This document shows, piece after piece, positions 15,552-21,345 of a stretch of DNA of 28,285 bases. Each line of letters begins with the position of its first letter. Position 1 is the stretch's first letter. The position numbers and the translations under genes are program-made. The DNA is from a virus, in IMG/VR virus record IMGVR_UViG_3300031379_000016, positions 1 through 28,285 of that record. One strand, given 5' to 3'. A model generated the notes under the pieces. That model saw nothing but the letters and a program-made list of their open reading frames with translations. It ran no database searches and was not told the DNA's origin.

Positions 15552-16973
15552 TTACTCATCATTTTCATTATTGTTAGCATCAGGAGTTTTGTCAGACTTT
15601 TTGAAATTAACAAACTCTTCTGATAATATGCCACGACGTTGTAGCTCTTTCAGATATTCTTCTGTGGTTAACCCACCTTCGTTCCAGGTGTTGTATAACG
15701 TTTGTAATTCAACTGCTTCCGGTGATGTGAATTCAGTCGGCACCATCGCCCTACCAGAGTGACTTTTTCTCATCCAATCAGACATCATCCGTAACGCATT
15801 ATTCATCGCATCATTGAAGCGGAAAGTGACATCTTGAAGTGGTGACGTAGCCTCGGTTGAATCAAGATTTCTTGCAGAAGCTGATTCACGATCAGGACGC
15901 TCTTTTGTAAATTCTGCCCCGTATGATTGCATTCGCTTTTCAAGATCTTGAAGATCTTTTCGACCAGCTTCAATCGCAGCACCTTTATGTTCGACATAAT
16001 AAAATCGAGCAGCAGGATCAGGAGTATACAACCATTCTTTAGGCCCAATAACCAATCGGCCTTCCTCATCATCTCCACCTGAACATGCGAGCATTGGAAA
16101 TCGAGCTACAGTAAGGATCGAAATCTGATCAGACATGGACTGCCAGTGACGAATATTCAAGTCAGCAAGATCGTCCAATGGAGACTTACCTACCATGAAG
16201 CCTTGACGATCTGCATAGAATGTCACCAGCGGAATATAATCAATGTCCATCCAGAAAGTTTCTACTACCTGCCAAACTTCTTTTTCGTCTTGCTGATAAA
16301 TATCCACTCGTACTTTCTGAACAAAATTTGGCTCATCATCTGTACCAGCATTATACATATCTACTTCGAGGACTCGAATCTGTGTAGTAACAACTTCTTC
16401 CCACCCGTCAAGTGACACTACATCTTCTTGAATTCTAATATGTGTCAAAACTTCTTTACCATTAACTCTCATTGACAATGCAAAGATAAGTTGTTCTGGC
16501 CTGATGTGCACAAAATATGGCCGGATATTCATTCGATCATCATCAGCCATTGATCGAGGCTGATCAATTTCAACACGAGGAAATTCAACCAGTACATGAC
16601 TAAATGCTTTTGCAACACCATCTTTGAACCAGCTACGAGCAAATACATCGAGATTATTGCCGTTAAGATCAACATCATTTATTAGTGGGTTGAGATGGCT
16701 GGCAAAATCATCTGTGTATTGAATTTGGCATCCAAAGGGTTTACCAACCCACATCCGAATCGTCAAGTCCACCATATTAAATAATACATTACCAGCGATA
16801 CGATCAGCATAGTTTGCCTTTGTCTCATGTTCGTGACGCGGGGCCATATCTTCGCCGGCAACACGCATTGCTTCGGTTCCGGCAAGCAATGTGTCCATCT
16901 TAAACCAGCGATTTTGCATAGCCTGATAAGCTAAACTTGCTGTCGCTACTGTCGCTTCATCTTTTTTTGCCAT
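15552..16973 (-). CDS. Portal protein (DUF4055 type)
   Basis: This 473-residue protein has the order typical of the DUF4055 portal family: an N-terminal helical part with NYADRIAGNVLFNMVDLTIR, a WFKDGVAKAFSHVLVEFP segment, IRPEQLIFALSMRVNGKEVL, PLDDLADLNIRHWQSMSDQ followed by ILTVARFPML, and a C-terminal helix with SARNLDSTEATSPLQ and an Asn/Asp/Glu tail. Twelve copies form the ring through which DNA enters and leaves the head. I start at MAKKDEATV (ATG 16,971-16,973), two bases after the terL stop with AAAGGA upstream; the longer frame to 17,012 lies inside terL. The length is usual. Confidence 0.88.
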   Translation of the reverse strand: MAKKDEATVATASLAYQAMQNRWFKMDTLLAGTEAMRVAGEDMAPRHEHETKANYADRIAGNVLFNMVDLTIRMWVGKPFGCQIQYTDDFASHLNPLINDVDLNGNNLDVFARSWFKDGVAKAFSHVLVEFPRVEIDQPRSMADDDRMNIRPYFVHIRPEQLIFALSMRVNGKEVLTHIRIQEDVVSLDGWEEVVTTQIRVLEVDMYNAGTDDEPNFVQKVRVDIYQQDEKEVWQVVETFWMDIDYIPLVTFYADRQGFMVGKSPLDDLADLNIRHWQSMSDQISILTVARFPMLACSGGDDEEGRLVIGPKEWLYTPDPAARFYYVEHKGAAIEAGRKDLQDLEKRMQSYGAEFTKERPDRESASARNLDSTEATSPLQDVTFRFNDAMNNALRMMSDWMRKSHSGRAMVPTEFTSPEAVELQTLYNTWNEGGLTTEEYLKELQRRGILSEEFVNFKKSDKTPDANNNENDE

Positions 16974-16975
16974 TT

Positions 16976-19900
16976 TTACCAAGTCCTTTGAATAATAGTA
17001 CGTCTTGTCCATCTAAACCGATACCGCCACATGTCACCAGCATGATCCTCAACATCTGAGTTGACATCATCTAAATTTTTATCATCACGTGGCAAACATG
17101 GAACTGTTCGCCGAGAATCTGTACAGCGTTCACATATAAATAAACCTTTATTCTCTCTTACCCCAGCTACTGGAATACTTCCAGATAATAACGTTCTAAT
17201 TTGTTGCCATCCCTGCACACGTGAGCCTTTGGATTTATCTACATCGTCCCAATACACACCTTCTTTTTTCATGTCACCAGCTACGGTCTTCAACCCATCG
17301 TATTTTGAAAAGATCGAAGAATCCGCTGGGCCACGCTTGATTCGTCCACGCAAACCCATTTCTTTTTCTTTTTCTTTGATCTGACGAGCAATAGCCTGGG
17401 CGGTCATGTTGAGACCTTTATTATCCTCGTTAGCACAACCATAATATTCATCGAAAAGAAATATATCACCCTTTACTTGGCCATACTCTTTGTTAAATAA
17501 CGTAATTGGATTGCCATTACTCTCAGCCCACCATCCGACTGAAAATGGTTTTGATAATCCGTGGTCGTAAGCACGATTCATAAACCAACCTGATTTCCTA
17601 AGTAGGATATATGGGATATTTGGAATAACATGGATTTTCTCATTCCAAATATCATCAAACATTCCACCAGACGTAATATCCCAAGAGCCTTCGATCCATG
17701 CAGCCAATTCCGCAGGATTACGGGCGGCAGCTCGTAGAGTATTAACATAACTTGGATCAGCCAGGAGTAAAATCTTATTCTCAGCCAATGAGCTACGAAT
17801 TGCAACTCGCGGCTTGTCAAGCTCATCCGCAGGAACGTCGCGAGTATCTCTAATGACAGTACCGAGAAGCATTCCATCAGCCATCGGTAATTTGAATCTC
17901 TTTTTAACCCAGTTATGCCCAGGGCCGTAAGGATTTGTGGTCGCTCGGACTCGGCAGAGCTTGGCTACTTGTGGGTGTGCAGATCTGCACAACGAAAAAA
18001 GTGGTGTATAACATTCACTATTAGGCCAAGTAGTCAATTCTTCAAATCCTATCCACGGATAAGAGTTGCCTGATACCCATACGGAACCTTGCTGCCGGAT
18101 CACAAACATGTGATGCTTTTCAAGTCCGATGCAATAAACCTTGCCTTTATGGTGTTCGCGTTGGACTTGAATCTTAGCTGACAGCGGTTTACCTCTTTTC
18201 CAACGCACATCAGTGCGTAGCTTTATGTCACGCCGCTTGCTTCCACGACAAGTGATAGTATATGATAGGCCCTCACGACTGTCACGCTGTCTTGAGCTGA
18301 CGTATACCTTATATCCAAGCTTGACTGCTATCTCAGCCATGTCGTCCGCCAATTGTTTTGAGGTCGTGAAGTAATACGCGTTATCTTTCTGCCATGACCC
18401 ATCACCCGCCATTGCTGCGTTGAAGAATAATCTAAGTTGCCTGGCGTTCATGTTCTTAATGATCTCTGGTACAAATTTGTCACGGCACTTGCCGAAAGGT
18501 CTTAGATATGTCCACCAATCTATACTGCTAAAGATAAATCCAGTTTTATTGCTTCCAAACTCAATACCCATCCGCAGCAGAAGGTCGGCAATCCAGGTTC
18601 TATTTTTCTTTTTTTGCTGACCTACTCCTACTTGAAGATTAGAGGTGACAGTTGACCCCTCGGATAAAAACCAGCCCATAAACTCGGCGAAGTCATCACC
18701 GGTGACAGTGAGGGGTTGATTCTTATATTTGGTGGTATATCTTGGATTTCTTAGTGCTTGTGGAATATCTACCTGCTCAACATGTGCTCCACCGCGGTAA
18801 TTTACATTAGCTGCTATTATTACCTCATGGCCCAAGGAATTGTATTTTGTGGGTTTGAGCGTACCATCATCCTGCACGACCGCAACTTTGTGGTTGGGGG
18901 TGAATTCCATAAATGATCCACGGCCTTCGTGAACAACTAAATCACCATCATAATCCTCTTCGGTCTTGGTCGCCACAGGCATAGGTATGAGGTCTCTATT
19001 TTCATCTACAGCGTACACAATGTCACCTACTTTAATGTTCTTGATGTCTCTCCAACCTGTTGGCGTAAGTACATCACCATTTTTGAGACAGTGGCCATGA
19101 TAATTCCAATATTCTGACGGACGCATTATATGACGAAACTTTAATGTTTCGCCTGTAGCCCATGTCCATGTTTTAGCTTGTTTATTATAATCAGCGTTCG
19201 GCCAAATCTTCTTGAACCATTTTAATGACTTACTAATAATGTCATCAAGCTCAGGAAAGGTTCGCCGAAACAAAATTCCCTTCCACTCTTCACCAAAACC
19301 ACGGCCAACATATTGTGCAAAGTCCATCAGCAGTACGTCGGTATTGTGGGTGACAACAAAACCATCAATAACGAAAAGTTTTCTTGGGTGCTTGACTGCA
19401 AAACATGTAGCGTCACCAGTGCCACATGGTTCTATACTCTTAATCGCTCTATATTGATATTTATGGGTAACAGTCATTTTACTCAACTTACGTTTTAGTG
19501 TAAAAGGCTTCAAGACATTTCTGTGGGATATATTTACTCGCCAAATTGGTTTAGACCACTCAGATTTTACTCCAGATAATTTTTTCGATTTATTTTTTAA
19601 TGATCTTGGTGCGGAATAGTGTTTTTGAGCCAGTCCGCCCAAAGAGCGGATGAGGTATACATAGTCATTTGCCATTCTTTCTGAAATAGTGCAAGCAGTG
19701 ATTCTACCCTCTCTATCACATGAGCCGTCTGCATCCATCATTCCTTGAAGAAGTCTCAATCGAGTATGCGGATCAGCTTCAAGCAATTCTTGGGGGACAT
19801 GTTTATCTTCTTTAGAAACTCGGCCAAGAATATCTTTATATTGTGGATCACCGTAAAGGTACATCTGCCACAGCTTAGGTGATTTTTTCTTATACCGATT

Positions 19901-20512
19901 ATCCTTCCATCCAGCAGCCTTCAAATACTCTATAATTTCCGGTTCAGTATTATATATAGTAATGTGATCTCCAGTTAGCGTTCCGTCACCTAATATAAGG
20001 CCAAGTATATAGGGGTCTGGGCCAATCCATTTTTTTCCTGGGACAGGTTTTTCAATAACTGGAATAGACCAAACCTGAGTGCTTTCAACTATCTCTTTAG
20101 TGGTTTTTATCTGATTGGGTTCATCTTTACAGGCTTTTTGTGATCTCACTTCCCAGAGATGTTCGGCGTCCACAATAATCTCTACCCCATCGCAAAAAGT
20201 TAATCTATATAGCTCTTTTTTTCCTTGTGGAAAAATTCCGAGGATTTCCGTAAATGTTCCATCAATAGCCACAAGTTTATCTGCCATAACAACGTCACCT
20301 ACTTGTTTCCAGCCTGAGTCAGATAGAATACGCTCACCATTACTTAAAGCCTTCCCACCCCCTCGGTTGCCTGCCAGTAGAGTTTCAAAGATCGGACATC
20401 GTAAGAATGCTTCCTGACTTCCAGGTTGAGGAAACCAGATCGCCGGAGTACCGTCAATGAATGCGGTTAGCTCACCTGTTTCATTAAGTCGCCATTCAAC
20501 TTTTTGACTCAT
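16976..20512 (-). CDS. terL: Terminase large subunit precursor with two inteins
   Basis: A single 1178-codon frame encodes a TerL of 500 residues once two inteins (336 and 342 residues) are removed. Extein landmarks are: Walker A LLAGNRGGGK at 45-54 with its T at 391 after the first intein; RRTFPELDDII; the region YWNYHGH (468-474) joined to SYPWIGFEEL (817-826), which holds the Walker B acidic pair E824/E825; the coupling motif RATTNPYGPGH; and the RNase H-like nuclease with D983 (AYDHG), D1021 (FLFDEYYG) and the DVEDHAGDMWRY segment at 1153-1164. TerL pumps DNA through the portal and cuts concatemers. Its ATG overlaps the stop of the preceding gene (ATGA). Without splicing neither the P-loop nor the Walker B region would be contiguous, so splicing is required for packaging. 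Confidence 0.95.
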   Translation of the reverse strand: MSQKVEWRLNETGELTAFIDGTPAIWFPQPGSQEAFLRCPIFETLLAGNRGGGKALSNGERILSDSGWKQVGDVVMADKLVAIDGTFTEILGIFPQGKKELYRLTFCDGVEIIVDAEHLWEVRSQKACKDEPNQIKTTKEIVESTQVWSIPVIEKPVPGKKWIGPDPYILGLILGDGTLTGDHITIYNTEPEIIEYLKAAGWKDNRYKKKSPKLWQMYLYGDPQYKDILGRVSKEDKHVPQELLEADPHTRLRLLQGMMDADGSCDREGRITACTISERMANDYVYLIRSLGGLAQKHYSAPRSLKNKSKKLSGVKSEWSKPIWRVNISHRNVLKPFTLKRKLSKMTVTHKYQYRAIKSIEPCGTGDATCFAVKHPRKLFVIDGFVVTHNTDVLLMDFAQYVGRGFGEEWKGILFRRTFPELDDIISKSLKWFKKIWPNADYNKQAKTWTWATGETLKFRHIMRPSEYWNYHGHCLKNGDVLTPTGWRDIKNIKVGDIVYAVDENRDLIPMPVATKTEEDYDGDLVVHEGRGSFMEFTPNHKVAVVQDDGTLKPTKYNSLGHEVIIAANVNYRGGAHVEQVDIPQALRNPRYTTKYKNQPLTVTGDDFAEFMGWFLSEGSTVTSNLQVGVGQQKKKNRTWIADLLLRMGIEFGSNKTGFIFSSIDWWTYLRPFGKCRDKFVPEIIKNMNARQLRLFFNAAMAGDGSWQKDNAYYFTTSKQLADDMAEIAVKLGYKVYVSSRQRDSREGLSYTITCRGSKRRDIKLRTDVRWKRGKPLSAKIQVQREHHKGKVYCIGLEKHHMFVIRQQGSVWVSGNSYPWIGFEELTTWPNSECYTPLFSLCRSAHPQVAKLCRVRATTNPYGPGHNWVKKRFKLPMADGMLLGTVIRDTRDVPADELDKPRVAIRSSLAENKILLLADPSYVNTLRAAARNPAELAAWIEGSWDITSGGMFDDIWNEKIHVIPNIPYILLRKSGWFMNRAYDHGLSKPFSVGWWAESNGNPITLFNKEYGQVKGDIFLFDEYYGCANEDNKGLNMTAQAIARQIKEKEKEMGLRGRIKRGPADSSIFSKYDGLKTVAGDMKKEGVYWDDVDKSKGSRVQGWQQIRTLLSGSIPVAGVRENKGLFICERCTDSRRTVPCLPRDDKNLDDVNSDVEDHAGDMWRYRFRWTRRTIIQRTW
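18065..19090 (-). other. TerL intein 2 with LAGLIDADG endonuclease
   Basis: This covers TerL residues 475-816. It starts at Cys475 (CLKNGDVLTPTGWRDI, block A), has the block B T538-P-N-H541, block F GKVYCIGLEKHHMFVI, and ends SGN816 before Ser817. A class 1 mechanism (Cys1, Asn, +1 Ser) is indicated, but the residue before the terminal Asn is Gly rather than the usual His. Two LAGLIDADG-like motifs (EFMGWFLSEG at 610-619; FFNAAMAGDG at 696-705) with acidic residues E618 and D704 suggest a homing endonuclease. Insertion is a few residues before the Walker B strand. Confidence 0.93.
19343..20350 (-). other. TerL intein 1, class 3 type, in Walker A, with LAGLIDADG endonuclease
   Basis: This covers TerL residues 55-390, inserted between Lys54 and Thr391 of GNRGGGK-T. 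It begins with Ala55 (ALSNGERILSDSGWKQVGD), which cannot act as the usual first nucleophile. Block B reads VDAEHLW with Trp120, block F reads ATCFAV with Cys370, and it ends VVTHN390 followed by Thr391. Trp-Cys-Thr at these sites is the diagnostic WCT set of class 3 inteins, in which the block F Cys starts splicing. LAGLIDADG-like motifs lie at YILGLILGDG (168-177, D176) and LQGMMDADG (255-263, D262), so the homing endonuclease looks intact. Confidence 0.95.
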
Positions 20513-20853
20513 ATAACAAAAGCCTCTAAATGCCGGAACGAATCACATGACTGTACGTCACCGGTGACTGTACTCTTGAGCGTACAAAACTTTGTGCTGG
20601 GCTTGCGGTAGCCACAACAACCACAATTCAATCCCAGTTTTCTATGCTCAATGAATTCTTTCACTACAGCAACGCACATCCTTGGGTCAATATTATCACC
20701 AAACTTTGCATTACAATCTTCGGCCAATGCAGCCGCTGCTAATAACGCAACGTCTTTCTTGAAACCACATTCGGCCATCATTTTACTTTGGGTTTTGACT
20801 TGACTCCGAACATATATCGTCAATCCCTTTTTGGTCAACTCGCATTCCACCAT
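20509..20853 (-). CDS. Small Cys-rich (zinc-finger-like) protein between terS and terL
   Basis: This 114-residue protein has an N-terminal helical part (TIYVRSQVKTQSKMMAECGF, KDVALLAAAALAEDCN) and a Cys-rich C-terminal part, LNCGCCGYRKPSTKFC then a C in VQSCDSF, suggesting one zinc site of the CxxC...C...C kind. Its start (ATG 20,851-20,853) has a strong GGGAGAAAG ribosome binding site and lies 71 bases inside the end of terS; its stop overlaps terL by four bases. The tight packing suggests co-expression with terminase. I do not recognise the family; a DNA-binding helper of packaging is only a guess. Confidence 0.68.
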   Translation of the reverse strand: MVECELTKKGLTIYVRSQVKTQSKMMAECGFKKDVALLAAAALAEDCNAKFGDNIDPRMCVAVVKEFIEHRKLGLNCGCCGYRKPSTKFCTLKSTVTGDVQSCDSFRHLEAFVI

Positions 20854-21307
20854 ATTCTTTCTCCCATTCGTCAGGGTTTAGGGAAGTTTGTACAACGAGA
20901 ACGCCCGCCTTGACGTTCGCGTCAACGGATAAATGATCCCGATACTTCGGGTTATGAGCTTTTGCTAATGCAAGTAAAAGAGTGTCACTATATACCCGCT
21001 CGGTTGCGATTCGTGCACCTTTATAATAAATTCCTTTAGATACGCCATTGATTGCTCGATCATGGACAGCCGCGTCGATCAACTCACAATATCCCTGCAT
21101 CGCAGACATTTCAAGAGCTTTGAGATCATCTTCTTTGCTCATCAAATAGCTCATTCTACCAGGATCTACTCCAGCCATAATTGCAGAGTATCTCTTGCGG
21201 CCAGAAACTTCCAGATAAGCAAGGTACAGCTCGATTTGAGCAGTGCTTATGTCAGGCAACGCTGGCAACTCTACGCTTTCGTCTATTTTTACTGGTAATC
21301 GCGTCAT
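20783..21307 (-). CDS. Terminase small subunit (probable)
   Basis: This 174-residue protein starts MTRLPVKIDESVEL. Helical segments include QIELYLAYLEVSGRKRYSAI (helix-turn-helix-like, with AIMAGVDPGRMSYLMSKED), then LKALEMSAMQGYCELIDAAV, and a C-terminal LAKAHNPKYRDHLSVDANVK. The npkyRd...v motif near the C-terminus is common in small terminases with an N-terminal DNA-binding domain that recognise the packaging start site. It lies upstream of terL as expected. The ATG has no good ribosome binding site and sits about three bases past the predicted transcript start of its promoter. Confidence 0.78.
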   Translation of the reverse strand: MTRLPVKIDESVELPALPDISTAQIELYLAYLEVSGRKRYSAIMAGVDPGRMSYLMSKEDDLKALEMSAMQGYCELIDAAVHDRAINGVSKGIYYKGARIATERVYSDTLLLALAKAHNPKYRDHLSVDANVKAGVLVVQTSLNPDEWEKEYGGMRVDQKGIDDICSESSQNPK

Positions 21308-21316
21308 TCTGCCACA

Positions 21317-21345
21317 ATTATAGGACATTATGTCCTGGAAGTCAA
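21317..21345 (-). promoter_or_regulatory. terS promoter with palindromic operator in the spacer
   Basis: TTGACT (21,340-21,345) and TATAAT (21,317-21,322) are separated by 17 bases. The spacer is largely filled by AGGACATTATGTCCT (21,322-21,336), arms of 7 bp around one base. The predicted start of transcription, near 21,310, is only about three bases before the ATG at 21,307. The palindrome is a likely repressor or activator site. Confidence 0.82.

Follow-up and report, generated by a model that had tools for sequence, protein, structure and literature searches.

Class 3 inteins are distinguished by a WCT triplet at positions B:12, F:4 and G:5 of their conserved blocks (PMC5050341 and PMC7891396, both in excerpt), and a survey of the nr database counted 1701 of them, 82.5% with endonuclease motifs (PMC7891396, in the same excerpt). 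One of the closest described systems is M. smegmatis DnaBi1, a class 3 mini-intein at the DnaB-b site (structure 6bs8), which carries W67, C118 and T137, the last followed by H138 and N139. In the available portion of its description, the P-loop Ser takes part in Mg coordination and also acts as a splicing residue (PMC6195587). Another is the mycobacteriophage TerL1-a intein, which sits between Lys and Thr of the terminase large subunit, TerL (PMC5050341, in excerpt).

Here we analyzed a stretch of viral DNA of 28,285 nucleotides (IMG/VR record IMGVR_UViG_3300031379_000016; hereafter the window), whose terL gene contains two inteins. Intein 1 resembles DnaBi1, as far as the excerpt describes it, in the WCT set, the P-loop location and the use of a hydroxyl residue at +1, but it differs in its host protein (TerL instead of DnaB), in its +1 residue (Thr instead of Ser) and in its endonuclease, which is absent from DnaBi1. 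With TerL1-a it shares the Lys/Thr site, although that TerL belongs to another family and other hosts, and the excerpt gives no class for TerL1-a. Because the DnaB case and the TerL Lys/Thr site are already in print, a class 3 intein that splits a P-loop is not new, and intein 1 adds another case of a kind already described. In our main reading, to which we assign a probability of roughly 0.93, intein 1 is a class 3 element that carries a LAGLIDADG domain, is mobile and has inserted itself among the Walker A codons of a phage terL.

The minus-strand ORF at 20512-16976 encodes 1178 aa and was identified as TerL (Table 1). Joining its three extein pieces yields a 500-aa TerL, which matches the TerLs of Pseudomonas phage YuA and its relatives at ~51-53%; the best match among TerLs of viral contigs reaches 91% (L044). 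The neighbours of terL match the small terminase family phrog_4044 (20783-21328) and the portal family phrog_145 (15552-17012). G+C content is 39.1% in intein 1, 44.8% in the whole window, 40.9-48.8% in the exteins and 41.5% in the portal gene. Low G+C of intein 1 was dropped as proof of recent arrival, because the exteins and the portal gene vary equally.

Table 1. Features of the intein-containing terL gene, in the order of its reading direction
Feature	Coordinates	Strand	Conservation in aligned inteins
TerL N-extein, residues 1-54, ends in Walker A GNRGGGK	20351..20512	-	
Intein 1, class 3, 336 aa, LAGLIDADG type, flanked by Walker A Lys54 and Thr391	19343..20350	-	
Trp120 codon, block B:12, W of WCT (DAEHLW)	20153..20155	-	Trp 104/109
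Cys370 codon, block F:4, C of WCT, putative initiating nucleophile	19403..19405	-	Cys 108/109
Thr388 codon, block G:5, T of WCT (THN)	19349..19351	-	Thr 109/109
+1 Thr391 codon, first C-extein residue and Walker A Thr	19340..19342	-	
TerL middle extein, residues 391-474, separates both inteins	19091..19342	-	
Intein 2, 342 aa, Cys1, block B TPNH, LAGLIDADG type, C-terminal GN, +1 Ser	18065..19090	-	
TerL C-extein, residues 817-1178 plus stop codon	16976..18064	-	

Intein 1 comprises ORF residues 55-390, and the reading frame is open across the whole ORF. Four intein-free close TerLs (L038, L043, L044 and L049) read GNRGGGKTDVLLMDF, gapless at Lys54/Thr55, which supports both borders of intein 1, and excising exactly 336 residues gives back the TerL family sequence. 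The initial annotation had drawn these borders exactly, and the insertion it had described between the Walker A Lys and Thr, with the +1 Thr serving as the Walker A Thr, is seen at Lys54/Thr391. Seventy-four of 79 TerL loci cover the Walker A site; the insert is absent from 72 of them and present in two (L071 and L092). Over the 48 bases around this site, the window shares 30 to 42 identical bases with twelve close relatives, the intein-free terL of L049 having 42/48. The nearest related inteins, L120-L122, are 44-45% identical to intein 1 (best E value 2e-82, relative to the candidate stretches searched), and we found no relative of intein 1 closer than 45% identity.

Conservation was scored in an alignment of 109 sequences (the window itself, 28 relatives and 80 further loci). 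The relatives were picked by likeness to intein 1 and the set was not dereplicated, so that some duplicate contigs are present (e.g., L002 and L180) and the counts describe the intein 1 lineage, not all inteins. A scan of genome contigs returned only one fragment, L010, which spans residues 7-87 and belongs to a Rickettsiales MAG; it was dropped from the alignment and enters no count. The WCT positions hold Trp in 104, Cys in 108 and Thr in all 109 sequences, and all three together in 104. Block B His and the terminal Asn are invariant (109/109 each), and the penultimate His is found in 108/109. Position 1 is Ala in 61/109 and Cys or Ser in 12/109. A natural Cys1 within a WCT intein is seen in a phage pair: the near-identical class 3 inteins of Salmonella phage SPLA3 (L015) and Escherichia phage EC001 (L017), with only two inner differences over 1067 compared bases, diverge in a short patch at their start (L015:1501-1509 and the corresponding place in L017), Ala-Leu versus Cys-Cys.

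Intein 1 itself has Ala55 at position 1, where a class 3 intein lacks the Cys nucleophile and a class 1 intein has Cys or Ser. Trp120 occupies B:12, Cys370 (Cys316 in intein numbering) occupies F:4, and Thr388, read from VVTHNT at residues 386-391, occupies G:5. With Ala at position 1 and the full WCT set, both class 1 and class 2 were rejected. The initial annotation had placed Ala1, Trp120 and Cys370 correctly, and had called for an alignment with known class 3 inteins, in which another residue at F:4 was to count against it; the conservation of Trp and Cys in our alignment is in its favour. It had erred in naming +1 Thr391 as the T of WCT; this T is Thr388. The class 3 call stands, because Thr388 and Thr391 are both present. 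An alternative is that intein 1 is class 2-like or derives from class 1, so that the +1 Thr itself attacks the N-terminal junction and the block F Cys plays no part. Ala1 by itself would also fit class 2. Moreover, when the N-terminal portion of the splicing domain is compared with solved structures, the closest sequences are those of gp41-1, described as class 1 (PMC7664689): 6riz, a WCT-grafted gp41-1 mutant (E value 2.6e-8), and 6qaz (5.7e-7). Against this alternative stand the complete WCT set, which the lineage keeps, and the near-invariant block F Cys, and we consider it extremely unlikely.

A class 3 assignment also agrees with the predicted fold. The AlphaFold2 model of intein 1 (8-row alignment; mean pLDDT 86.9, pTM 0.87) was compared with solved structures by VIA-align: the whole model matches PI-SceI 1lwt (Z 26.9, 3.5 Å, 320 residues). 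For the splicing domain alone, the match is 6bs8, the class 3 DnaB intein of M. smegmatis (Z 20.3, 1.5 Å, 123 residues). Class 1 mini-inteins score close behind 6bs8 (e.g., Prp8 6mx6, Z 19.4), and therefore the fold by itself is indecisive on class. Judged by sequence and model together, the likeness of intein 1 to other inteins is well beyond chance. The two LAGLIDADG motifs of intein 1, LGLILGDG and LQGMMDADG, contain the acidic residues Asp176 and Asp262. Asp is found at position 176 in 102, Asp at 262 in 108 and Lys at 237 in 106 of the 109 rows; we take these positions to be catalytic, as in LAGLIDADG enzymes, and the earlier statement that the endonuclease motifs look intact holds. Across the full ORF, with its two inteins, Pfam LAGLIDADG_3 matches twice, the better match lying within intein 2, and Pfam Hom_end matches residues 239-319.

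The split P-loop had been offered as remarkable. The arrangement is real, but it is the rule in the intein 1 lineage: the -1 residue is Lys in 107/109, with Gly-Lys at -2/-1 in 101/109, and the 109 residues at +1 are split between Thr (97) and Ser (12). As these Lys and Thr/Ser flanks accompany a WCT set conserved in 104, 108 and 109 rows, a class 3 intein between the P-loop Lys and Thr/Ser is, by sequence, the norm in this lineage. The strict [AG]xxxxGK form accounts for 46/109, and the remaining flank forms include DDMGLGK/T, presumably helicase motif I. The retrieved phage records annotate host genes such as terminase, helicase and PhoH. The WCT set occurs at GK/T or GK/S in the TerLs of mycobacteriophage Rakim (L022) and Klebsiella phage N1M2 (L013) and in the terminase of Gordonia phage Verity (L023). 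The TerL inteins of Rakim, N1M2 and Klebsiella phage YC1 (L019) are like intein 1 in their full WCT set, GK/T site and endonuclease motifs, but they are about 28-32% identical to it and lie in other TerL families. Two further class 3 inteins retain the Lys/Thr pair (-1/+1) although their flanks are atypical as a P-loop: EFK/T in the LittleE TerL (L011:1501-2520, annotated terminase) and, in a mycobacteriophage gene with an HNH endonuclease annotation, ELK/T (L028:1201-2193).

Related inteins occupy the intein 1 site in other TerLs of the same family, on the viral contigs L071, L092 and L120. They share with intein 1 the TerL family, a K/T or K/S site and the class 3 signature, at 35-45% identity, but have Arg at position 1 and, in L092, Ser at +1. 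A quick tree was built from 102 rows, after L014, whose translation contains stops, and six near-duplicates had been removed from the 109; in it, intein 1 groups with L071, L092, L120, L121 and L122 (group of six, SH-aLRT 99). L121 and L122 are at most distant TerLs, because their matches to the TerL query are weak (E values 2e-12 and 8e-16). The four inteins of the window TerL family (window, L071, L092 and L120) do not form one branch; their distribution takes 3 changes, which 15 of 500 shuffles reach. A single origin of these four is still compatible with the sequences.

From known class 3 inteins, we infer how intein 1 may act in chemistry, in-cell splicing and endonuclease activity; its anatomy, borders, conservation, predicted fold and intein-free alleles were observed directly. 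Because intein 1 splits the P-loop, the ATPase of the precursor should be inactive. Cys370 would attack the peptide bond that joins Lys54 to Ala55, the acyl group would pass to the +1 Thr391, and cyclisation of Asn390 would leave GGGK-TDVLL ligated as a working P-loop. Intein 2 would also have to splice before the packaging motor works. The intein 1 endonuclease would cut intein-free terL alleles at the insertion site, and repair would copy the intein in.

On its sequence, intein 1 is probably splicing-competent. We give next to no credence to a decayed intein that has lost splicing: the gene is open end to end, the catalytic positions are all kept, and a tailed phage cannot do without TerL. 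Splicing might instead be conditional, as a redox-gated switch that keeps TerL inactive until conditions permit packaging. Oxidation inhibits DnaBi1, another P-loop intein of class 3, via its catalytic Cys (PMC6195587, in excerpt), and intein 1 has five more Cys besides Cys370. However, none of these five shows strong conservation across the 109 rows, and the Cys in CYEVEF of the M. chimaera DnaB intein, which we infer to correspond to Cys48 of DnaBi1, aligns with a Leu of intein 1. Such a switch is therefore highly improbable, and a mobile class 3 intein remains our preferred reading.

Intein 2 (ORF residues 475-816), absent from the initial annotation, is located directly upstream of WIGFEE, a stretch that we take to be Walker B. 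It begins with Cys475, in keeping with the Cys or Ser of class 1, has its block F Cys in VYCIGL and ends in SGN/S. The penultimate His, which is usual but not strict in class 1, is replaced by Gly in intein 2 and likewise in its relatives; a mycobacteriophage RDF intein works with a penultimate Gly (PMC5050341, in excerpt). Three comparisons of intein 2 gave pS of 0.71-0.75 and dN of 0.148-0.185, with synonymous sites saturated or nearly so, and the single usable ratio, versus L039, is 0.084.

The intein 2 site is occupied in 5 of the 77 TerL loci that cover it (of 79), and one of these five, L035, matches the window at 100% identity across intein 2. A shorter insert of 435 bases with conserved ends lies at the same site in L100 (2809-3230); endonuclease motifs are absent from it in the alignment, and by sequence it looks like a mini-intein. 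A third region, presumably the C-motif, is occupied by inteins in 5/77 TerL loci. In related TerLs (L045, L046, L080, L091 and L092), the NP-x-G-x-GH region contains relatives of intein 2 at several closely spaced positions, which makes it a third hot spot for inteins in the ATPase domain. Because the Walker A site, the intein 2 site and the C-motif region are all occupied within the family, the window TerL family takes inteins at three ATPase motifs. The TerL of L092 is also double, with inteins at Walker A and the C-motif. Two inteins in one gene are described for M. smegmatis DnaB (PMC6195587, in excerpt), and in haloarchaeal MCM two inteins hinder each other's homing (PMC10643990, in excerpt).

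Intein 1 thus places one further TerL on the list of P-loop class 3 inteins. Because a double function of the +1 residue has been published for DnaB, as far as the excerpted source describes it, intein 1 alone opens no long-standing question. The terL family of the window offers a natural series, in which empty and single-intein alleles surround a double one and which is usable for studies of homing and co-homing. We tentatively put forward, as a conjecture we consider somewhat doubtful, that an endonuclease-bearing class 3 lineage may specialise on the Lys/Thr dipeptide, and that one TerL motor may depend on two splicing events of different class. If true, this specialisation would allow such inteins to move between unrelated P-loop ATPases and to K/T sites outside P-loops.
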